A stretch of DNA of 35,456 nucleotides from a virus. The stretch covers positions 1 through 35,456 of the IMG/VR virus record IMGVR_UViG_3300050821_016589, one strand, 5' to 3'. Both the position numbers and the translations under genes were made by a program. Positions 2,649-24,970 of this stretch are shown piece after piece. Each line of letters starts with the position of its first letter. Position 1 is the stretch's first letter. Below the pieces are notes generated by a model. That model was not told the origin of the DNA and ran no database searches. It saw only the letters and a list, made by a program, of their open reading frames with translations.

Positions 2649-3119
2649 ATGCAACAAAGAATTTCATGGAATAGTGAAACGCGGCTCATCTCTGACCTTT
2701 CCCCCTATCCTAAAAATGCCCGCTGCCTTACGGAACAAGATGCTTTTCATCTACAAACTTCCATAAAAAAATTTGGCCTCATTGATAAACCCGTCATCAA
2801 TATCGATAATCAAATCATAGGAGGTCATCAAAGACTGGAAATCCTCAAAAGAATGGGATTCACGGAAATAGAAGTGTTGGTTCCAGATAGACGCCTTGAA
2901 TCGTTTGAAGTGGAAGAACTAAACATACGTCTCAATAAGAATACAGGAGACTGGGATTGGGATAAGCTAGCCAATGAATTTGAGGTAACAGATCTTTTGG
3001 AATGGGGGTTTTCTACAAGTGATCTTGGATTAGGGAAAATTGGAGAGCTTAAAGAAGAGGAAGAAGAAAAAAAGGAAGAAGAGCTTTGTCCAACCTGTAA
3101 CCAAAAAATAAAAAGATAA
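2649..3119 (+). CDS. ParB-like N-terminal domain protein upstream of terminase
   Basis: A 156-aa protein with a ParB/sulfiredoxin-type fold: L-S-P-Y-P-x-N-A-R near residue 17, a K-F-G-L-I-D-K-P helix-turn, and the signature G-G-H-Q-R near 58-62. In ParB proteins this box binds CTP. Many phages carry such single-domain proteins next to terminase genes, sometimes fused to DNA methylases. The C-terminal part has a run of Glu/Lys and a lone CxxC. I chose the ATG at 2649, which has an AAAGGA directly before it; a TTG at 2640 is the alternative. It is unlikely to be a segregation ParB, since no ParA or HTH is present. Confidence 0.78.
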   Translation: MQQRISWNSETRLISDLSPYPKNARCLTEQDAFHLQTSIKKFGLIDKPVINIDNQIIGGHQRLEILKRMGFTEIEVLVPDRRLESFEVEELNIRLNKNTGDWDWDKLANEFEVTDLLEWGFSTSDLGLGKIGELKEEEEEKKEEELCPTCNQKIKR

Positions 3120-3143
3120 ACAAAGGATTTTGAAGTAGACAGT

Positions 3144-3635
3144 ATGGCACGTAAATGCACCGGCAACCCTACAGGAAGACCAGACAAACCTATCGATTGG
3201 AATATGTTCGAACAACTTTGCGGTCTTCAATGCACTCAAGATGAAATGGCAGGATTTCTTCACGTATGTGGACCTACCTTAAGTACACGAGTGGCAGAAC
3301 ATTACGGGGAAGATTATTTAACCGTATATAAAAGATTTACTAGTTCTGGTAAATGTTCCCTGAGAAGGAACCAATTTGTTATGAGCAAGAAGAGCGCTTC
3401 GATGGCTATTTGGCTCGGAAAGCAATGGCTGGGCCAAAAAGATATGTCGAAAGAAGAAATGCACGACATGGTGAAGGAAATCAAAGATGCGATTAAAGAA
3501 AGTGAAGCAGGACCAGGATCTTTCGAAACTCAACAACCCCATTTGGCGTCTGAACAACCTTTACTATATCAAGAGTTCTCAAGGCAAACAACTCAAGTTC
3601 CAGATGAATTGGGCCCAAAGGGACCTATATGCTAA
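3144..3635 (+). CDS. terS: Terminase small subunit
   Basis: A 163-aa protein that would bind the packaging start site and hand DNA to the large terminase. The N-terminal half shows N-P-T-G-R-P followed by an HTH-like helix pair (C-T-Q-D-E-M-A...P-T-L-S-T-R) and a core S-L-R-R-N-Q-F...A-S-M-A-I-W-L-G-K-Q-W-L-G-Q-K-D that recurs in phage small terminases. The last 50 codons overlap the start of the large subunit by 149 nt in another frame, and there the sequence loses family character. Position directly before terL supports the call. Confidence 0.85.
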   Translation: MARKCTGNPTGRPDKPIDWNMFEQLCGLQCTQDEMAGFLHVCGPTLSTRVAEHYGEDYLTVYKRFTSSGKCSLRRNQFVMSKKSASMAIWLGKQWLGQKDMSKEEMHDMVKEIKDAIKESEAGPGSFETQQPHLASEQPLLYQEFSRQTTQVPDELGPKGPIC

Positions 3636-5459: not shown

Positions 5460-7487
5460 ATGAATAAGAATTATTCAGATTGCATCAATGTCCTACAAAC
5501 TCAATGGTATCAAGCCGACCTTGATCAAAGATTTTATCTAGGCGATCAGGATCTATGGGGACTTATTTTCCCGGGAGTGGCTACTTATCGTAGAAAAATA
5601 TTCAACTTCAACTTGATTAATGGCGCCGTTCAAATGATCTCTGGTTATCAAAGACGGAATCGAAAATCGACCATCTGCACTCCCATTATGTCCCCTATGC
5701 AGAAAACGTCTGATCAACTTACTAAATGTCTCTACCATATACATAATCAGTCGGGAGCTTACCAAGTTTATTCAGATGCGTTTGAACAAGGGGCTCTTAC
5801 ACAAGGAATAGGATTTATATCTGTGTACAAGGATATGACAGACGATCCGATTTCTGGAGACATCAAGATTCGATATGTAGATTTCAAGTCTGTTCTTTGC
5901 GATCCTTATTTTAGAAAGCATGACCTATCCGACTGTCGATATATGTGGACAAGACAGTTTTTTGATCGTCTGGAAGCAGCCGACCTTTATCCGGATTTTA
6001 GAGATCAGATCTTAGCCCTCCCGAAAGGGACGTATAGAGACGATAAATTTTATTACATGCCCGAGGTTTACCAAATTCAATTTCCAAATTTAATAGCTTT
6101 TGATGAATATTGGTATTTGGCTACGCGTGAAGCCACGTATATCATCGACAAAAAGACTGAGGAAACTCAAGAATTTCAAGGTGATGAAGAAGATTTAAGA
6201 GAGGCAGTCCGCGCTCTCTCAAAAAGAGATCCTGATTACAAAAATCGGATAAAAATTATTAAACGGGCTAAGCCCACTGTACGGAGATCAATAGTATTAA
6301 ATGACAGAGTTCTCGTTGATGAGGCGAATCCTTATGGCCTTGACCGTTATCCTTATGTTCCTGTATTGGGTTATTTTACTCCTGATACTGCCTATTACGC
6401 TTATAAGTTCCGTGGTATTGTTCGCGATATGCGAGACGCTCAATATCTTTTTAATAGGAGGAAAGTGGCTGATCTCGACATCTTGGAGGCTCAGCAGCAA
6501 GGATTAAAAATTAAAAAGGGAGCTCTCGTTACTCCTGATGATGCTCTTAATCAAGGTAATGGTCGAGTACTCTCCATAGATCCTGCCTTCCAAATGAGCG
6601 ATGTAGAACCGATGCCTATTGTGCCTCCTGCTGCTACTATGATTCAGATGGAGGAGATGCTGAAAAGTATAACCATGGAAATCGGCGGTGCCACTGAAGA
6701 ATTAATGGGGTCTGCCGTAGATGATAAGGCTGGTATTCTTTCTATGTTGAGACAGGGAGCCGGGCTTACCCGTCTTCAACGTCTATTTGATCAAATGGAT
6801 GAATCTCAACGCCAAGTCGGCGACATCATGATTGAAATGATTCAGAAAAACTGGACTTATGGAAAAGTTCAACAAGTGATTGGAGAAGATCCCACTCCCG
6901 AATTTGATAATAAGCTCTTTTTTAAATATGGTAGCAAAGTCACAACTGGAGTGCTAACTGAATCCCAACAGCAGTTAGAGCTTCAACAAAAAATCTACCT
7001 CAAAGAGGCAGGTCTTGTGAATTTTACTCAACGGGAGATTCTTGAATCTGTCACCATGCAGAATAAAGAGAAGGTGATGGAGAGATTGGATGCGGAAGAA
7101 AAGGTTCAGGCTCAACAACAACAGCAATTGCAACAACTTCAAATGCGGCAGCTACAAGTTGAAAATGAAACTAAACTTTCCTATGCTCAATCTCAGAAGG
7201 GACTTGCTGCCGAAAGAATAGCCAAGATCGACACCGATAAAGCTATTGCAGTAGATAAACTAAGGAAATCTCGACAGGAAGACACTCATTCTCTTCTTAA
7301 CCTTTTAAAGGCAGCGAAAGAATTAGAAGGGATGGACATTCACCATCTTAAAGAAGGATTAGACGCCTTAAGCGACTTCAAGAATTTATCTACGAACCCT
7401 ACCGATCAAAAAGCAGATGAAATAGCTCAAAGCTCTTCCTTATCCCAGCAGATCTCTCAAAACCCTGAAATTGGACCGCTAGAATGA
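5460..7487 (+). CDS. Portal protein, P22-like
   Basis: A 675-aa protein forming the dodecameric ring through which DNA enters and leaves the head. The length, gene order and N-terminal pattern (W-Y-Q-A-D-L-D-Q-R-F-Y-L-G-D...Q-M-I-S-G-Y-Q-R-R-N-R-K-S) match the P22 gp1-type portal group, whose members are about 650-730 aa. The C-terminal 150 residues are a Gln/Lys-rich coiled coil, like the P22 barrel domain. The ATG at 5460 lacks a ribosome site. The frame is open upstream to 5382, and a GGAGGT precedes an in-frame ATC at 5397, so the true N-terminus may be 21 residues longer (P-G-E-P-T-D-L-S-I-R-Q-Q). The stop overlaps the next gene by ATGA. Confidence 0.93.
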   Translation: MNKNYSDCINVLQTQWYQADLDQRFYLGDQDLWGLIFPGVATYRRKIFNFNLINGAVQMISGYQRRNRKSTICTPIMSPMQKTSDQLTKCLYHIHNQSGAYQVYSDAFEQGALTQGIGFISVYKDMTDDPISGDIKIRYVDFKSVLCDPYFRKHDLSDCRYMWTRQFFDRLEAADLYPDFRDQILALPKGTYRDDKFYYMPEVYQIQFPNLIAFDEYWYLATREATYIIDKKTEETQEFQGDEEDLREAVRALSKRDPDYKNRIKIIKRAKPTVRRSIVLNDRVLVDEANPYGLDRYPYVPVLGYFTPDTAYYAYKFRGIVRDMRDAQYLFNRRKVADLDILEAQQQGLKIKKGALVTPDDALNQGNGRVLSIDPAFQMSDVEPMPIVPPAATMIQMEEMLKSITMEIGGATEELMGSAVDDKAGILSMLRQGAGLTRLQRLFDQMDESQRQVGDIMIEMIQKNWTYGKVQQVIGEDPTPEFDNKLFFKYGSKVTTGVLTESQQQLELQQKIYLKEAGLVNFTQREILESVTMQNKEKVMERLDAEEKVQAQQQQQLQQLQMRQLQVENETKLSYAQSQKGLAAERIAKIDTDKAIAVDKLRKSRQEDTHSLLNLLKAAKELEGMDIHHLKEGLDALSDFKNLSTNPTDQKADEIAQSSSLSQQISQNPEIGPLE

Positions 7488-8080
7488 AATTAATTTTTTT
7501 ATTTTTCTCATCTTTAATATGTGTTTCTACACTTAATGCGCTTCCTTCTTTGCAAACTGGTTATCTGAAAGCTGAAATTGGAGTAAATCTAATCAGCGAT
7601 TCAGCGGTTGAATTTCCTCTAGAATTTGCGCGTGGGTTTTATATCGGGGCTGCCACAGGATTTTATCTTCTTCCCACACTACGCACTGAATTAGAAATGG
7701 GATATAGAAGCAATAAGTTTCAAAAGCCTATCCCTAATGCGAAACCAATGTCTGGGGACCTTTCTGGTTTGAGTGCGCTTGCAAATTTAATTTTAGAGTT
7801 CCCTTGTGGAGATATGTTTAATTTTTCTCTTGGAAGTGGGGTGGGGGCTCAGAAAACTTGGAAGACTCTTTTAGTGCCAGGGGCCGGAGTTCGAAGAGAG
7901 GGCATCTTTGAGTTTTACAATATTTATTGGCATTCTTCTTACATAGTTTTTCAGATTTTAAGCGCAATGGAATTCCGTTTGAAACAGGATTGCTATTTAG
8001 AATTTGATTTTAGAGCTTTAGGAGGAGCAGACTTCGATACCAACTACACATTTTGTAGCGGTATTAAGCTCTATTTTTGA
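7484..8080 (+). CDS. Outer-membrane beta-barrel-like protein in the late operon
   Basis: A 198-aa protein with a signal peptide (K-L-I-F-L-F-F-S-S-L-I, cut near S-T-L-N-A) and an alternating Gly/aromatic pattern typical of small opacity/porin-like barrels (G-Y-L-K-A-E-I-G, G-F-Y-I-G-A-A-T-G-F-Y, L-E-M-G-Y-R-S-N). It ends in Tyr-Phe, the residue type recognised by the BAM insertion machinery. It starts in a 4-nt ATGA overlap with the portal stop, so it should be made with the virion proteins. Phage-encoded barrels such as lambda Lom are known. Its job here (surface change, superinfection exclusion or lysis aid) is not given by the sequence. Confidence 0.75.
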   Translation: MKLIFLFFSSLICVSTLNALPSLQTGYLKAEIGVNLISDSAVEFPLEFARGFYIGAATGFYLLPTLRTELEMGYRSNKFQKPIPNAKPMSGDLSGLSALANLILEFPCGDMFNFSLGSGVGAQKTWKTLLVPGAGVRREGIFEFYNIYWHSSYIVFQILSAMEFRLKQDCYLEFDFRALGGADFDTNYTFCSGIKLYF

Positions 8081-8256
8081 GGTACTATACAGCGAGGAGT
8101 AGAGTGTCCCATAGCCGGGCCTAAAATTGTCACAAGGTTGCTCTCATGAGATTCTTCTTCTATGGCGCCTTTTTCCGCAATGCTATCCGTAGCTTCCTCG
8201 AATTCCTTTTTTATTTTTTCTAAAGAAATTTTTTCGGAATTTTTTTTAATTTCCAT
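8071..8256 (-). CDS. Small charged protein, 61 aa, opposite strand
   Basis: The minus-strand ATG at 8256 follows a good AGAGGAA ribosome site. The product is soluble, with a Lys/Glu-rich helical N-terminal half and a more neutral C-terminal tail. Its 3' end overlaps the 3' end of the beta-barrel gene by 10 nt in convergent orientation. The ribosome site and lack of any competing plus-strand gene here support it. Function unknown. Confidence 0.5.
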   Translation of the reverse strand: MEIKKNSEKISLEKIKKEFEEATDSIAEKGAIEEESHESNLVTILGPAMGHSTPRCIVPQK

Positions 8257-8327
8257 TGTTCCTCTTGTTAAAAATATCCAACTTCATTATTTCTGAGTAA
8301 AAGAATCTCTTAACCTCCGGAGGGTAT

Positions 8328-8525
8328 ATGAAAGAGAAAATGAGTAAAGCTGGTTACGCACAGGGGGATATGAGTCCTCACGTAGAAGATTATCAAAAAC
8401 CTAGTAAAGATTATTCTCAAGAAGGTTTTAGTAAAACAACAGAGTATGTAGAAAGACAAGATAAATTCCAAGCTAGAGAAGCACGTGGAATAGAAAAACA
8501 AGCATACGAAGGACGTTATTCTTAA
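8328..8525 (+). CDS. Small hydrophilic protein, 65 aa
   Basis: It is preceded by one of the strongest ribosome sites in the genome (GGAGGG, 5 nt before the ATG), so it is probably made in quantity. The product is rich in Lys, Glu, Tyr and Gln, with no cysteine and no membrane segment, and is likely disordered. Its stop abuts the next ATG (TAAATG), giving a coupled pair of tiny proteins in the head gene region. No family recognised. It could be a minor head component or an internal DNA-binding peptide, but this is inference. Confidence 0.68.
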   Translation: MKEKMSKAGYAQGDMSPHVEDYQKPSKDYSQEGFSKTTEYVERQDKFQAREARGIEKQAYEGRYS

Positions 8526-8690
8526 ATGAAAAAACAATCTAAAGAAGTTCCCGTTCAAAAAGGAAAGATTGATTCTAATCCTATGACTATGAAACAAATG
8601 AATCAGGATCAAAAAGTACGAGAAAGACGTGAACAGATTAAAGAAAGTAGAAGAGGTCAAACCACAGATTTTCATTCTCCACGAAGATAG
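8526..8690 (+). CDS. Small basic protein, 54 aa
   Basis: The ATG follows the previous stop with no gap. The product is highly charged and methionine/glutamine-rich in the middle (P-M-T-M-K-Q-M-N-Q-D-Q), then R-E-R-R-E-Q and S-R-R-G-Q-T near the end. No membrane segment or known domain. It is the last gene before a rho-independent terminator, which supports its reality. Similar in style to the small basic proteins at 34462-35226. Confidence 0.6.
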   Translation: MKKQSKEVPVQKGKIDSNPMTMKQMNQDQKVRERREQIKESRRGQTTDFHSPRR

Positions 8691-8713
8691 GTTAGCCTTC
8701 CTTACCTCTTCGG

Positions 8714-8754
8714 TAGCCCGTGTCTGAGTTCCTCGGACTGGGCTATTTTTTTTT
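8714..8754 (+). terminator. Rho-independent terminator
   Basis: TAGCCC pairs with GGGCTA, and an inner GTCTGAG pairs with CTCGGAC (one G-U) around a 3-nt loop. A run of nine T follows. It closes the terminase-portal transcription unit in the middle of the head genes, so the genes beyond it need read-through or their own promoter. Confidence 0.85.
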
Positions 8755-8774
8755 AACCCCAAAAATATGAAATT

Positions 8775-9323
8775 ATGCCTAATAAAAAAATTAAAAAGGA
8801 TCCTAAAAAAAGTTTATACGATCAATCGCGCGACACTGTAGGAAAAATCTACAGAGATCTCCATCTCAATAAATCAAACCCGATCATTGAAGTGGGGGAT
8901 ATGACCAATTCTCTCATCCCGGATCTAGTGGATGACATCAATGATGCTTTAAAAGATGGTACTAAAGATTTCGGGGGAAGACCTTTCTATGTTCTCATTC
9001 ATGAGAAAAAAGATCTTCAGATGAAGGATGCTCTTCTTAGAAGAATTTTCAAACAACTTTACCGTCCTTACCCGGAAGATGATACCACTGTTTTTTGGCA
9101 TGACCCAGCGGCTTTCGAAACACGGTTCTGTTGGAGTTTGCCTCACTGGTCAGAAATGGATAATATGCTTAATAGCTATAAGCTCTATGATAATAATCTA
9201 ATCGCAGAGATCCGTGCCTGGAAGAGTTATGATTTATACCATTTCGGATTCGAAAAGGATAATATGGGAAACTGGAAGCCTAATCCGAACTGGAAAGATC
9301 ACCCCCTAAAAAAAGCGTCTTAG
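8775..9323 (+). CDS. Conserved-type phage head-region protein, 182 aa
   Basis: A soluble protein with a basic N-terminus (residues 1-12), a central segment with F-G-G-R-P-F-Y-V-L-I-H-E-K-K-D-L-Q-M and a Trp/His-rich part (F-W-H-D-P...W-S-L-P-H-W-S). Proteins of this kind sit near portal and scaffold genes in several podovirus-like genomes, but I cannot assign a function. It lies between two terminator-like structures, so it may be transcribed as a single gene. Confidence 0.7.
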   Translation: MPNKKIKKDPKKSLYDQSRDTVGKIYRDLHLNKSNPIIEVGDMTNSLIPDLVDDINDALKDGTKDFGGRPFYVLIHEKKDLQMKDALLRRIFKQLYRPYPEDDTTVFWHDPAAFETRFCWSLPHWSEMDNMLNSYKLYDNNLIAEIRAWKSYDLYHFGFEKDNMGNWKPNPNWKDHPLKKAS

Positions 9324-9385: not shown

Positions 9386-9599
9386 AAGTAGATTTCTCCA
9401 AATGAAAATGATCTTCTACGAAATGGTGGATTAATTTCATGATGCTAGGGACTTCTATGTCCTTATCTCGTAGTTCTATGAGCAAATAACAGAAAAATGA
9501 TGTGAGAATTTCTTTCATTTTTTCCTTATAAACGGCGTGTAGCTCGGTTTGATCATCAAACCCTTCTACAAAATCCCTTATCAATTTTTCCTTATCCAT
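9384..9599 (-). CDS. Small helical protein downstream of recombinase, 71 aa
   Basis: The start overlaps the end of the serine recombinase gene by 8 nt, so it is read from the same message. The product is predicted to be almost all helix, acidic, with a His-rich end (I-H-H-F-V-E-D-H-F-H). No HTH signature or membrane segment is evident. No family recognised. Co-expression suggests a partner or regulator of the recombinase, which is inference. Confidence 0.65.
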   Translation of the reverse strand: MDKEKLIRDFVEGFDDQTELHAVYKEKMKEILTSFFCYLLIELRDKDIEVPSIMKLIHHFVEDHFHLEKST

Positions 9600-10167
9600 A
9601 CGAATCCTTTCCCGGCTTTTTTAAATACTTGTAAATACATCCTCGACTTACATTGAATCTCTCGCATATTTCCTTTTTCCTATACCCTTCCTCATCAAGG
9701 CGACGAATTTCTTCAATCTGTTGTTCATTGAAAACTTTTCTGCGTCCTATATAGACCCCACGTTCTCTGGCTAAGCGTATTCCCTCTCTCTGCCTCTCTC
9801 GGATCAGAGAAACCTCGAATTCCGCGAACGCTCCCATCATGGATAGTAGTAAAATGGACATGGGGGAATCGTCTCCAGTGAATATGAGATTCTCCTTAAG
9901 AAACTGGATTTCCGCTTTTTTTTCCGTGATCTGTTTCACCACATTTTTTAAATCCAAAAGATTTCTTGCTAACCTATCCATGCTATGGACATATATCCGA
10001 TCTCCCTCTCGGATATACTGAACCATTTCATTCAAAGCAGGTCTATCTAAAACTTTTCCTGTAAATTTATCAATAAATTTTCTGTCAAGAAGAATTCCTT
10101 CAAGCTGACGATCGGGATTTTGATCCGAAGCGCTAACACGGATATATCCAATTTTTTGTCCTTTCAT
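9592..10167 (-). CDS. Serine recombinase (resolvase/invertase family)
   Basis: A full-length 191-aa small serine recombinase. The catalytic Ser12 lies in I-R-V-S-A-S-D-Q-N; further family motifs are T-G-K-V-L-D-R-P-A-L, D-R-L-A-R-N-L-L-D-L and F-A-E-F-E...L-I-R-E-R. The C-terminus has a Hin-like HTH (Y-R-K-K-E-I-C-E-R-F-N-V-S-R-G-C-I-Y-K-Y-L). Such enzymes resolve multimers, invert segments or move DNA; they are too short to be large serine integrases. No tyrosine integrase is present. It is in a minus-strand cassette between head genes, looking like an acquired module. Confidence 0.93.
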   Translation of the reverse strand: MKGQKIGYIRVSASDQNPDRQLEGILLDRKFIDKFTGKVLDRPALNEMVQYIREGDRIYVHSMDRLARNLLDLKNVVKQITEKKAEIQFLKENLIFTGDDSPMSILLLSMMGAFAEFEVSLIRERQREGIRLARERGVYIGRRKVFNEQQIEEIRRLDEEGYRKKEICERFNVSRGCIYKYLKKPGKDSYG

Positions 10168-20140: not shown

Positions 20141-21262
20141 ATGGTTCAGGTTGTTCCCAGATATAATTTAGGATCTCAATTAGGGGCCTCGTTAGGCCAA
20201 GGATTGCAGGCCGGTATTAATCAAGGGATAGAACAAAAATCTTTGCGTGATCAATTGCAATTGAAAAATCAATTAAATTCTGAGGCGGATCTCCAGAAAA
20301 TACTCTTAGAAAGTCAATTGGCCTCTCAGAGAGGAAGTGAGATGAAAAATCTTTTGACTGGGTTAGGAATTCCAGAGGATATTGCTACTTTATATTCTAA
20401 TGCTACAGAAGGGGGAAAGACTTCCATTCTGCAGAATATTCTTGATCTAGAGCAAAGAGGTTTATTAGGAGAAGGAATTCTTTCCGGAAAATCCTCTCGA
20501 CCTCAAAGATCTCAAGGTTTATCCGGAGGAAACGAAGGGGAATTTCAATTTCCAGAACTCCCTTCTTCTAAAGGATTAAAACCCACTGAAGCTGTCAAAA
20601 GGGAAGACTTGAGAGAAAAAACGAATATTCCTTTATACAATGAAACGAATGCTAAGTTGAGAAATTTCGAAAAAGAGTCTATGTCTCTAAAGAGGTTATC
20701 TCAACTAAATCAATCTGGAAAATTACCTACTGGGCTCTCTAAGTTTAATATTAATCCGAAAACTGGGGAAATCGTTTTCCCAGCTTTAGAAAATCCAGAA
20801 ACTCAATTATTTGCTAAAACTATTAATGATTTTACTACAAAAGCAAAAGATTCTTTTGGTTCGCGAGTCACTAATTTCGAGTTGGATAGATTCCTAAAAA
20901 GATTACCTACTTTAGCTAATTCGCCTTCGGGAAGACAATTGATTCTGAATCAAATGCAAGTCATCAACGATTTAGATGCTTTGGAAGAAAAATCGCTGAT
21001 TGATGTGTATGATCATTATGGAGTAGGAAATATAAACGGTCAGGAAGCTAAAAAAGTTGCCAGGGAATATAGATCGACTCAAGAAAGGACTCTCAAAGAA
21101 AAATACGATCAGATCGAGAATAGTTTGAAAGCTATAGAAAATCAAAGCGGAGGATCTGTTCCAAAAGGCTCTGTTTTGCTCTATGATCCGGAAGGAAATG
21201 AGCTTCATGTTCCGCATAATCGCGTACAAGAGGCGCTAAAAAGAGGAGCCGTGCGAAGGTGA
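20141..21262 (+). CDS. Internal virion (ejection) protein, 373 aa
   Basis: Starts right after the preceding ejection protein. Mostly helical and Gln/Leu/Ser-rich: an N-terminal Gly/Ala/Gln stretch (L-G-A-S-L-G-Q-G-L-Q-A-G), coiled coils near 35-65, a disordered middle (about 110-165), and a C-terminal helical domain ending in a basic tail. No enzyme motif, so no sign of the transglycosylase found in some ejection proteins. The order of three such genes before the fibres supports a DNA-delivery role. The end overlaps the next GTG start by GTGA. Confidence 0.7.
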   Translation: MVQVVPRYNLGSQLGASLGQGLQAGINQGIEQKSLRDQLQLKNQLNSEADLQKILLESQLASQRGSEMKNLLTGLGIPEDIATLYSNATEGGKTSILQNILDLEQRGLLGEGILSGKSSRPQRSQGLSGGNEGEFQFPELPSSKGLKPTEAVKREDLREKTNIPLYNETNAKLRNFEKESMSLKRLSQLNQSGKLPTGLSKFNINPKTGEIVFPALENPETQLFAKTINDFTTKAKDSFGSRVTNFELDRFLKRLPTLANSPSGRQLILNQMQVINDLDALEEKSLIDVYDHYGVGNINGQEAKKVAREYRSTQERTLKEKYDQIENSLKAIENQSGGSVPKGSVLLYDPEGNELHVPHNRVQEALKRGAVRR

Positions 21263-22602
21263 GCGCTTCAATTGATCCTTTTGAAGAATGGAGAGTCTCT
21301 CCTACAACTCCTTCTTCCGTTGAGAATCCAAATGAAGATCCTTTTGCTGAATTTCGGCCTCAAGAAGAACAGAAACCCTCTTTACTTAAAGAAACTGGAA
21401 GACATGTAGGAAGATCTTTAGCGAGAGTTTCTGAAACTGTTTTAGGAGCTCCACGGGCTTTAGGAGAGTTTTTAGAAGGGTTTGTTCCCGAGAAAGCTTT
21501 GGTTGCAGGAGCTAAAAAAATCGGAATTGAAAAACCTGTCAGTAAATCTATTGAATTTGCTAAAGAGCATGCTCCTTATAAACTTTTCCCCACTTCTGAA
21601 AATGTTCGAGAATTTAATAAAGCTCTCTTCGGAGAAAATGTAGAAGCCAAAAATTCTAAAGAGAAGCTTTCGGATGATATCATCTCTGATTTTGCGGCAT
21701 TAGCTATCCCAGTTCCTGGGAAAGAAATTAAACTGTTAAAGCCCGCTCTCTTATCTTTAGGAGCAAACACAGCTTCAGAGATAATAGGGAAACTGGGCGG
21801 CACTAATCAGCAGAAAGCTTACACTAAGCTGGGCACTATTCTATTTGGATCTCTAATCAACCCGAAATCTGCACAGAATTTTAAAAATGGATTATACGAG
21901 AAGGCTAGAGAAGCACGCCCTCCGGACGCCTCTGTTTCGGCTTTAAATTTGAAAAATCATCTAAATGATTTCAAAGCTCGTTTAGAAAAAGGAGGATCAG
22001 CCCCATCTAAAACCAAAAGTATAGAGAAAATAAACGAGCTAGAAGGAAAAATCAAAAACAACCGTATTGATGTAGAAGAACTAGAAGAATTCAAAAAAAC
22101 ACTTAATGAAGCACGAGCTGGATTATATACTGAGTATGCGGGGAATAAATATGGAAGAAAGCTAGCAAAATCTAATTTGGACAGAGCTTCTGGTATCGTG
22201 GATGATGCTCTAAAGGAATATGGGCAACAAAACCCTATTTGGGATGATTACTACAGATCTGCTAATGAAGTCCATGGAGCGATCGCGCAAAGCTATAAAG
22301 CGAGAAATCAGATAGGACGAGTAGCAAAAAAATACGGTCTGCACGCTATCTTGCCCGCTTTGGGGTTAGGTCATGCTCTCGGAGCTTCTGCCATCCCAGG
22401 GGCGATTGGGACAGCTGTAGCTGGAGCCGGTCTTTTAGGAGCGGGAGAATTAGCGGTGAGATTTGCTAAAAGCCCAGCTTTAAGAAAGCACTACACCGAT
22501 CTTATAAATTCTGCTATGAAAGAAACAGCCGTTTCTGACGCACTTATCCATGAGCAGTTGAAAAAGTTGAAGAAAGATTTAGAAAAAGAAAATCTTCAAT
22601 AA
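21259..22602 (+). CDS. Internal virion (ejection) protein, 447 aa
   Basis: The GTG start overlaps the upstream stop. N-terminal acidic repeats (D-P-F-E-E-W, D-P-F-A-E-F), amphipathic helices, a long coiled coil near residues 225-305, and a C-terminal Gly/Ala-rich hydrophobic stretch near 365-400 (A-L-G-L-G-H-A-L-G-A-S-A-I-P-G-A-I-G-T-A) that could cross a membrane. This is like the largest ejection proteins of P22-type phages. The C-terminus is a Lys/Glu helix. The last 7 nt overlap a convergent tiny gene. Confidence 0.7.
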   Translation: MSASIDPFEEWRVSPTTPSSVENPNEDPFAEFRPQEEQKPSLLKETGRHVGRSLARVSETVLGAPRALGEFLEGFVPEKALVAGAKKIGIEKPVSKSIEFAKEHAPYKLFPTSENVREFNKALFGENVEAKNSKEKLSDDIISDFAALAIPVPGKEIKLLKPALLSLGANTASEIIGKLGGTNQQKAYTKLGTILFGSLINPKSAQNFKNGLYEKAREARPPDASVSALNLKNHLNDFKARLEKGGSAPSKTKSIEKINELEGKIKNNRIDVEELEEFKKTLNEARAGLYTEYAGNKYGRKLAKSNLDRASGIVDDALKEYGQQNPIWDDYYRSANEVHGAIAQSYKARNQIGRVAKKYGLHAILPALGLGHALGASAIPGAIGTAVAGAGLLGAGELAVRFAKSPALRKHYTDLINSAMKETAVSDALIHEQLKKLKKDLEKENLQ

Positions 22603-22694
22603 TCAGAATAGTCAGATTCTTCCCATGAATCTTTTATATTTGCTATTAATCCCACGAAAAAAAGAGCTAATCCTAGGATTGCAATAATCGTCAT
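22596..22694 (-). CDS. Membrane peptide of 32 aa next to the second beta-barrel
   Basis: The ATG at 22694 follows an excellent ribosome site (AGGAGGA). The peptide has one membrane segment right from the start (T-I-I-A-I-L-G-L-A-L-F-F-V-G-L-I-A) and a short acidic tail (W-E-E-S-D-Y-S-D-Y). It begins 16 nt after the beta-barrel stop, in the same minus-strand message. The strong site makes translation likely despite the size. Possible roles are exclusion, holin-like or envelope stress functions; none is established. Confidence 0.68.
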   Translation of the reverse strand: MTIIAILGLALFFVGLIANIKDSWEESDYSDY

Positions 22695-22710
22695 TTCTCC
22701 TCCTGTTTTT

Positions 22711-23319
22711 TTAAAAACATCTTTTTAAGTTTAAGTTGAATGTGTTGTTTATTTCGGTTGTGGGACCATTCAAAAATCTGTATTCCAAAGAAACTCCCAT
22801 TTTTTCCTCTGAACAAAAATTCATTCCGGCAATAAATTGATAAGCGCCCCCTGAACTTTTTTCCACAACTCTTTCGAATGTGTATCTAACTCCTTTCACA
22901 TTAATTGGATCGAGCTTTGAATTTCTTTCATCCCATTTCCCGCCAATTCCCACCCCACAGTAAGGAACTAAAGAATGATTTTTCAAAGGAATTGCTAGAA
23001 TCCCGTTCGTCATCAAGGTAGTTTTCTTTATGCTTCCTGAGACGGGGAATGAAAAATTATTCATTTTAACATCGGATAAACTATTCCTTCTATAAGCTAT
23101 CTCAGCTTCTAATTTGAAAATATTTGATAGATTGTACCCTATACAAGTCCCTATGACATATCCTGGATTGAAATTGAGCTCGAATTCATCTTGTTTATGC
23201 TTATTTACAAAATTGAGCCCTGAAAATACATCAGCATACACATGCTCTATAGAGAGAGGTTGGCCGAATGCAATAGCATTTAAAAAAAGAAAAGTTATAA
23301 AAATGCAGATTTTTTTCAT
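22711..23319 (-). CDS. Second outer-membrane beta-barrel-like protein
   Basis: A 202-aa protein with a clear signal peptide (M-K-K-I-C-I-F-I-T-F-L-F-L-N-A-I-A-F-G, cut before Q-P-L) and barrel-like strands (D-V-F-S-G-L-N-F-V, G-Y-V-I-G-T-C-I-G-Y-N-L, L-E-A-E-I-A-Y-R-R-N-S, V-P-Y-C-G-V-G-I-G-G-K-W). It ends in Phe, as barrel proteins do. The ATG at 23319 has an AGGAGA site; an upstream in-frame ATG would bury the signal peptide and is rejected. The gene lies opposite the late genes, with its own promoter candidate, like a lysogenic-conversion moron. Confidence 0.82.
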   Translation of the reverse strand: MKKICIFITFLFLNAIAFGQPLSIEHVYADVFSGLNFVNKHKQDEFELNFNPGYVIGTCIGYNLSNIFKLEAEIAYRRNSLSDVKMNNFSFPVSGSIKKTTLMTNGILAIPLKNHSLVPYCGVGIGGKWDERNSKLDPINVKGVRYTFERVVEKSSGGAYQFIAGMNFCSEEKMGVSLEYRFLNGPTTEINNTFNLNLKRCF

Positions 23320-23341
23320 TTTTGTCTCCTTATATCCTACA

Positions 23342-23370
23342 ATGTTAAATGCTTTAGGAATTTCATTCAA
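23342..23370 (-). promoter_or_regulatory. Candidate promoter for the beta-barrel cassette
   Basis: On the minus strand TTGAAT (23370-23365) and TAACAT (23347-23342) are 17 bp apart, a fair sigma70-like match with four matches in the -10 box. The predicted start lies a short distance before the ribosome site of the beta-barrel gene. Confidence 0.35.
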
Positions 23371-23386
23371 ATAGTAAAATTCTTTA

Positions 23387-23417
23387 TTGACGCATACAAT
23401 TTACTCCGTTCTATTAA
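23387..23417 (+). promoter_or_regulatory. Candidate promoter for the fibre operon
   Basis: TTGACG at 23387-23392 and TATTAA at 23412-23417, spaced 19 bp (long). It lies upstream of the GTG at 23444 and back to back with the beta-barrel promoter candidate. Supported only by box similarity. Confidence 0.3.
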
Positions 23418-23443
23418 GGCCATATTCAATAGAGGTAAAAGCC

Positions 23444-24970
23444 GTGTCCACCCAACAAAGAATCACGGGCTATGGGGTAGGCGCTCCAGCGATAAAGCTG
23501 AATCCGCCACCTATAATCTCATCCAGATCTCCGACTGTTAATGATATTAAATATCCTTTAGGTCAACAGTGGATTTATCAGATTACACCTTCTAACGCCA
23601 ATTCCTATACTCTCGGAGGGGTTGCTGGAGGACAAGCTAATTGGATCCTAGAAGGGGGGAGTTCCTCCGCTTTAGCTACTTTAACCGGAGATTCTGGAGG
23701 AGCTATTTCTCCGATTTCAGGAAATATTAATATCTCTGGTGGAAATTTAAATACGTTGGTTGGATCGGGACATACTCTTACTTTAACTCCAGATATAGGA
23801 TCTTATCCCCCTAACCCTTATGTGGTAGGCCCAAGTGGGAAAGCTGGATATCAAACTATTCAATCAGCTTTAGATGCTATTGGCCCGGGAGGAAGTGGCC
23901 AGGTTTGGATTATGCCTGGGACTTATACAGAAAATTTAGTATATCCCAATGGAATTAATGTAACTCTTTATTCAGCTGGAGACGACCACTGTGGGGACGT
24001 GGTTATTATAGGGATGCATACCCCTCCAGATACTGGAAATTTACTAACTTGGAAAATAGGTCTCCATAGCTCTAGCCATATATATAATTCAGCAGCTGCG
24101 GGATCTTGTAATATTCTAATAGGACATAACATCCAAGTATGTAACGGTTACATTTTTAATATGCCTAACTGGACCTCCTCAGGAACATTTACTTTGTTCG
24201 CTACTTCTGACTTTGGTTCTACAAGCGATGGGGTTGTAAATAATACAGGAGGAGTCACAGTCTTCTTGTTAGAATCTTCTGTAGGGGTTGGAAACTCTAA
24301 TCCTATGATTTTGAGCGGATTCTCCTTAATAGAAGTCAATAATATCAGTTGCCCTATTCAGGTTTCAGGATCAGGAGCTTCTATTAATTTCTATGACTCT
24401 AACTTTTTTGCTCCCATCACTTTAGGAGGAGCGACGAATGGATTTTTTGTTAATAGTTATCTTTCTACTGGTGCTTCCGCTGCTCTTACCTATAACTCTA
24501 GCGGAAATACTATTCTAAGTAATGTTGTAATTGCCTCTACAAATAATCCTGCTATTGCTGGTACGAGTGCTGGTCAACTACAGATTGGCTCAGTTACTTT
24601 TATGAATAACTCTGCGATAGCTGGAACAGTTACTACCACTCGCGCAAGTACTTTGGATACCGGAATTATAGCCGCTGGAGGGAATTTAAATTTCCTAACA
24701 GCCGGAAATAAGATAACTGCACCAGCTGCTACAACGACTGTTGCGGGAGCGAATGCTTTCGGGACAGTTGTTTTAGTGGGCGGAACGGCTACAGTTGCGA
24801 CGACAGCCGTCACCGCTAATTCTATTATCCTTCTTACAGCTCAAGTTTTAGGAACTGTTGCGGTTGCTTCAGGATACGCAGTTACATCAAGAACCGCGGG
24901 AACAAGTTTTGTGATTACCGCCAGTGCAGGAATCGATACTTCCACCATTGGATGGCAAATTATTAATTAA
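23444..24970 (+). CDS. Tail fibre/spike with beta-helix domain, 508 aa
   Basis: I place the start at the GTG at 23444 (AGAGG site; M-S-T-Q-Q-R-I-T-G-Y-G-V-G) because it matches the starts of two paralogues; the frame is open further upstream. Domains: attachment-like N-terminus to about 60 (P-P-I-I-S-S-R-S-P...Y-P-L-G-Q-Q-W), a T-L-T-G-D-S-G-G linker, then a pectin-lyase-like beta-helix opening Y-Q-T-I-Q-S-A-L-D-A-I...I-M-P-G-T-Y. The C-terminal 70 residues (T-A-V-T-A-N-S-I-I-L-L-T-A...W-Q-I-I-N) form a trimer-type end module. No depolymerase catalytic residues are identified. Confidence 0.8.
   Translation: MSTQQRITGYGVGAPAIKLNPPPIISSRSPTVNDIKYPLGQQWIYQITPSNANSYTLGGVAGGQANWILEGGSSSALATLTGDSGGAISPISGNINISGGNLNTLVGSGHTLTLTPDIGSYPPNPYVVGPSGKAGYQTIQSALDAIGPGGSGQVWIMPGTYTENLVYPNGINVTLYSAGDDHCGDVVIIGMHTPPDTGNLLTWKIGLHSSSHIYNSAAAGSCNILIGHNIQVCNGYIFNMPNWTSSGTFTLFATSDFGSTSDGVVNNTGGVTVFLLESSVGVGNSNPMILSGFSLIEVNNISCPIQVSGSGASINFYDSNFFAPITLGGATNGFFVNSYLSTGASAALTYNSSGNTILSNVVIASTNNPAIAGTSAGQLQIGSVTFMNNSAIAGTVTTTRASTLDTGIIAAGGNLNFLTAGNKITAPAATTTVAGANAFGTVVLVGGTATVATTAVTANSIILLTAQVLGTVAVASGYAVTSRTAGTSFVITASAGIDTSTIGWQIIN

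Follow-up and report, generated by a model that had tools for sequence, protein, structure and literature searches.

A minus-strand barrel and micropeptide cassette at a site resembling P22 immI/sieA, a candidate for superinfection exclusion in a tailed phage family

In the record of phage P22, sieA lies on the minus strand from 22 nt after gene 16 and is followed by orf59a, mnt, arc, ant and the tailspike gene 9. Mutations that escape SieA exclusion map to the ejection proteins gp16 and gp20; every prophage sieA gene that was examined had its place between genes 16 and 9 (PMC10883804). The SieA types are about 25 % identical to each other and have the same effect. A small outer-membrane barrel encoded by a phage is known from lambda: lom lies on the late-gene strand between the tail gene J and the side-fibre genes. 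Lom has been reported to be expressed in lysogens and was linked to adhesion (PMC3342100).

We analysed a viral DNA of 35,456 nt, the window in the following, in which two minus-strand genes occupy a comparable place. The first codes for a predicted outer-membrane beta-barrel protein of 202 aa (P0001; 22,711-23,319, minus) with an ATG start and an AGGAG ribosome site 6 nt before it (23,326-23,330, minus). The putative signal peptide MKKICIFITFLFLNAIAFG (23,263-23,319, minus) passed a signal heuristic and presents a K-K n-region, a hydrophobic core and an AFG cleavage-like site (MKK..AFGQ start); the C-terminal residue is phenylalanine (..LKRCF). Pfam PF13505 (OMP_b-brl) matched with an E-value of 4.3e-8 and 34 bits, exceeding the gathering threshold of 28.7 bits. 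An AlphaFold model from only 3 sequences had a pLDDT of 33; several amphipathic 9-mers were the sole fold-related signal. Neither P0001 nor P0002 matched the PADLOC anti-phage defence profiles, a viral single-protein scan with the barrel gave no match, and tblastn against named phages yielded nothing better than E > 1. Sixteen nt behind the barrel gene follows a micropeptide gene (22,596-22,694, minus) for 32 aa, MTIIAILGLALFFVGLIANIKDSWEESDYSDY, with a single predicted transmembrane (TM) segment and an acidic aromatic tail. In its ribosome site AGGAGGAG (22,697-22,704, minus) the AGGAGG precedes the ATG by 4 nt.

At its stop, the micropeptide gene shares 7 nt (22,596-22,602) with the end of the plus-strand ORF 21,259-22,602. 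This convergent neighbour, which served as anchor for the site, is a putative ejection protein in the position of P22 gene 16, assigned by gene order only; Pfam and PHROG profiles did not match, nor did P22 gp16 or gp20 in phmmer. On the other side lies the first tail-fibre or tailspike-like ORF (23,444-24,970, plus, open from 23,387), its final 70 residues matching PF24146 K1-lyase_C (E 3.2e-17). GTG 23,444 is probably its real start, because paralogues begin with '..STQQRITGYGVG' or 'MSSDQQRITGYGVG' and a GAGGT site is present. An earlier note on this DNA, made from the letters, had described a barrel with signal peptide and, 16 nt past it, a tiny membrane peptide with a near-perfect ribosome site, the pair opposing the late genes between ejection and fibre genes; all of this was confirmed. 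The promoter candidate it had named fared less well: the divergent gap of 124 bp that separates the barrel gene from the likely fibre start (23,320-23,443) gives room for a promoter, and the scan found 3 sigma-70-like matches where 3.2 were expected, i.e., a result at chance. Across the 7-nt overlap of the convergent operons no terminator-like site was found, so that late transcription would continue across the cassette in antisense.

The portal of the window phage is of the P22 type (PF16510, E 7e-59). Eighty viral contigs encode relatives with 55-75 % identity, named phages reach only 21-24 %, and none of the named phage records searched was close to the family. Homologues of ORF 21,259-22,602 with 26-54 % identity were present in 13 other distinct phages (L083-L088, L185-L188, L191, L192 and L195). 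At the end of this ejection ORF, all 14 distinct phages, the window phage included, had an opposite-strand frame for a peptide of 26-38 aa with one TM segment. The overlap with the stop of the ejection ORF was exactly 4 or 7 nt in 11 phages (window, L083, L084, L085, L086, L088, L185, L186, L187, L188, L192) and longer in L087 (29 nt), L191 (53 nt) and L195 (71 nt). Hence the peptide frame, on whose conservation the earlier note had made its reading depend, is kept in position throughout. As a control, ORFs of at least 330 aa with 415 distinct 3' ends were screened at these ends for an ATG-started TM peptide with ribosome binding site (RBS) at -15 to +5 nt. Outside the ejection gene, a single one of about 405 large-ORF ends had such a peptide (L125), likewise downstream of TM-coiled-coil genes; dropping the RBS requirement added 7 chance-like cases. 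The micropeptide sequences diverge fast among the 14 phages. Nearly all begin with a charge-free hydrophobic part and end in a short acidic tail with many Y/W/F residues; exceptions are L086 and L188 with a positive net charge of the tail.

The genes in front of the micropeptide vary. In most relatives it is the end of a minus-strand operon with HTH and small TM-coiled-coil genes, comprising an HTH_17/excisionase-like regulator (HTH_17 E 1.7e-9), TM-coiled-coil proteins of 57-117 aa and further micropeptides; a P63C/antirepressor-like protein is encoded in the L088 cassette. A TM-coiled-coil profile retrieved many members across the related records; in the window it matched nothing. Among the 14 sites, only the window carries a barrel in the slot. 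The barrel is rare in the phage family as a whole, since PF13505 matched only the window and L014 (43 bits) in 52 whole records; a first search with the window barrel in 50 related records had found no match. With varied operon genes in the relatives and a barrel in the window, the slot is thus a site of exchangeable cargo genes. The earlier reading as a moron, on the minus strand and flanked by the ejection and fibre genes, is well supported by the variable minus-strand genes in the 13 other phages and by sieA, mnt, arc and ant at this place in P22. The constant element of the slot is the putative inner-membrane micropeptide of 26-38 aa, its stop usually overlapping that of the ejection gene; the remaining genes are exchangeable, HTH and TM-coiled-coil genes in the relatives and a Chlamydiota-type barrel in the window.

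Further features of the relatives' cassettes were recorded. A second, well-conserved TM micropeptide of 21-22 aa (MI.I..IGGALLLLWLER..) recurs in the minus-strand cassettes of L083, L084, L088, L118 and L119, with five pattern matches in L227-L231. Tandem paralogous TM-coiled-coil proteins were found in L185 (7,322-8,276), L187 (7,331-7,775) and L188 (7,354-8,505, at least four per cassette); they have a common '..EMKDFHGRLxxIE' tail and no clear Pfam or PHROG match. The exclusion-like cassette of L191 includes a Band_7/SPFH membrane protein (8,124-8,981).

Compared with P22, the likeness is one of place and kind. In P22, sieA is likewise on the opposite strand, 3' end to 3' end with the last ejection gene and before the tailspike gene, and SieA is a small inner-membrane product, as predicted for the micropeptide. 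The relatives' slots resemble immI in their DNA-binding regulators, in an antirepressor-like gene (P63C in L088) and in their variability among relatives. The window cassette has the position that defines the SieA family, between tailspike and gene 16 equivalent on the opposite strand, the equivalent being assigned by position only. The other family features, sequence similarity, the FxRYPxEAxxFNK motif and three TM segments, are absent: SieA has 164 aa and three TM segments, the micropeptide 32 aa and one, and there is no sequence similarity between them. A phmmer search with SieA against all ORFs of at least 40 aa of the record set gave no match, hence membership in the SieA family is not proposed. 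Unlike P22, the window has no mnt-, arc- or ant-like genes, and unlike the window, the P22 slot has no barrel. Exclusion is a known effect of sieA and a proposed one of the window cassette. The fast divergence of the micropeptides is no objection, because SieA types of such low mutual identity share the same effect. The likeness to lambda Lom concerns the barrel, which is also small, phage-encoded and close to fibre genes. However, it is encoded opposite to the late genes, and it matches PF13505, whereas Lom belongs to Ail/Lom; Ail/Lom PF06316 was absent from its Pfam matches up to E 1.

In the best explanation, which we hold with moderate confidence, the two genes form an accessory (moron) cassette where P22 has immI/sieA, with the micropeptide as inner-membrane exclusion factor and the barrel as surface-altering cargo. 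By analogy with P22, the micropeptide is probably such a factor. Once translated, it would insert into the inner membrane with the acidic tail outward and, like SieA, would hinder the conduit formed by a superinfecting relative's ejection proteins. If expressed in the carrier state, the barrel would reach the carrier cell's outer membrane and, like lambda Lom-type genes, may alter the cell surface, e.g., adhesion or the access of phages to receptors. Several observations stand against this explanation: a similarity to SieA or to gp16 and gp20 was not detected anywhere in the record set, the HTH and TM-coiled-coil genes of the relatives are lacking in the window, and the promoter matches are at chance. 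With a peptide of 26-38 aa at a site of known function in P22, the cassette offers a definite candidate for superinfection exclusion that experiments can test. For this phage family, a micropeptide conserved in a slot like that of sieA is new, and the barrel would be an example of how a bacterial surface protein is swapped into such a slot.

The relatives of the barrel bear on its role and on the host. They were found in L014, on a Legionella plasmid (L148) and in a chlamydia-like metagenome-assembled genome (MAG; L196). The PF13505-type barrels of Chlamydiota and Legionella are homologous to the window barrel over most of its length with 21-27 % identity, are located on chromosome or plasmid and have no adjoining TM micropeptide. 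The portal was present in four genome contigs from MAGs with conflicting labels. One portal-carrying MAG, G054 (L144), encodes six TLC ATP/ADP translocases and, beside argR/argH, a chromosomal barrel homologous to that of the window (E 5e-15). The barrel family occurred in 17 of the 62 G054-related genomes (0.8-3.2 Mb), two of which passed the chlamydial OmcB cut-off. G054 is labelled Acidobacteria despite the translocases and the chlamydia-like barrel next to arginine genes; this label is probably wrong. Our best guess for the host, from binning and markers and with one MAG bin labelled Acidobacteria, is a chlamydia-like bacterium. A literature search on Caudoviricetes of Chlamydiae yielded nothing relevant, and tailed phages of Chlamydiota are, to our knowledge, little known.

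This distribution also allows a reading in which the barrel serves the bacterium's own life as a lysogenic-conversion surface protein, e.g., in adhesion to or survival in a eukaryotic (amoebal) host, with no anti-phage role and with an unrelated peptide. It is a tentative alternative, somewhat on the unlikely side. Members of the family lie on the chromosome in chlamydia-like bacteria and on the Legionella plasmid, the adhesion link reported for Lom in lysogens (PMC3342100) points the same way, and two related barrels had sub-threshold matches to the Rickettsia adhesin Adr model NF052636 (E 4e-6 and 5e-5; 18-26 bits against a cut-off of 210 bits). The window barrel itself did not match this model, and the general features are common to small outer-membrane barrels.

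Cassette proteins weakly matched PHROG families of holins, Rz-like spanins and XhlA-type hemolysins, which suggests another function, a lysis or envelope-permeabilising module with a lysis- or holin-like peptide and XhlA- or spanin-like TM-coiled-coil proteins. The scanned window ORFs, a part of all ORFs, included no endolysin, and RNA phages have single-TM lysis peptides of similar size. We regard such a module as unlikely: the holin and spanin E-values of 0.03-0.07 are near chance for TM and coiled-coil sequences, the window is without coiled-coil genes, and the cassette runs against the late genes, headed in the relatives by an excisionase- or repressor-type HTH, unlike a late lysis operon.

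The earlier note had further proposed that barrel and inner-membrane peptide span both membranes as an exclusion system. Exclusion as such is plausible from the P22 position and the SieA biology (PMC10883804), the pairing as one unit is weakly supported, as 13 of the 14 sites carry the peptide without a barrel. A search for the pair in other genomes, also suggested there, found the adjacency repeated in L014 and nowhere else: a related barrel (E 4e-5 to the window barrel) is followed by a 28-aa TM peptide, MISALIFTVGVTIIMVIFYFIFKDDPFE, with overlapping stop and start, at a different genome position near the terminase genes and on their strand. Of 754 gene-like ORFs of these phages, 13 had a TM micropeptide close downstream; for a random gene, the single repeat in L014 would thus be expected with a probability of about 2 %. 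This rarity, the L014 case and the 16-nt spacing in a shared operon would agree with a two-component envelope system for exclusion or for barrel stabilisation across outer and inner membranes. Apart from the barrel-free sites, about 20 chlamydia-like barrels were retrieved, none with a peptide, and a second barrel of the window, directly after the portal gene (7,484-8,080, plus), has no micropeptide close behind it. A two-component system is therefore quite improbable, and a dedicated two-membrane barrel-peptide pair possible but weakly supported. More doubtful still is the wider proposal of a Chlamydiota tailed-phage family with a micropeptide exclusion island at the SieA position, the barrel coupled to the micropeptide in two lineages as a two-membrane exclusion device.

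The remaining reading, a chance ORF, is hardly credible: the frame is short and amino-acid identity is low except among the closest three micropeptides, but position, strand, size and TM segment are alike in all 14 phages, most have the RBS and the acidic or aromatic tail, a KDxWxE-like tail is common to the window, L185 and L186, and the conserved position makes the micropeptide strongly more than chance.

The two barrels of the window, called unrelated in the earlier note, proved to be homologous (E 7e-12 and 24 % identity in the same-genome search, phmmer 1e-10, BLASTP 9e-6), which rules out the second as an unrelated protein. The barrel of the cassette does not resemble a recent copy of the second, as it scores better against some chlamydia-like chromosomal barrels (best to 2e-19) than against the second barrel (3e-13). 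A barrel tree had long branches, was mostly unresolved and did not decide this point.

A small serine resolvase/invertase (PF00239 and HTH_7; 9,592-10,167, minus) lies inside the late region of the window, and the relative L003 has one at 2,752-3,336. Together with an HTH-like ORF, the resolvase is the sole pointer to lysogeny of the window phage and gives a hint at most. In L028 (12,438-13,235), L064 (4,439-5,170) and L068 (12,547-13,188), ParA-like ATPases are encoded just past the portal gene and suggest plasmid-like prophages.
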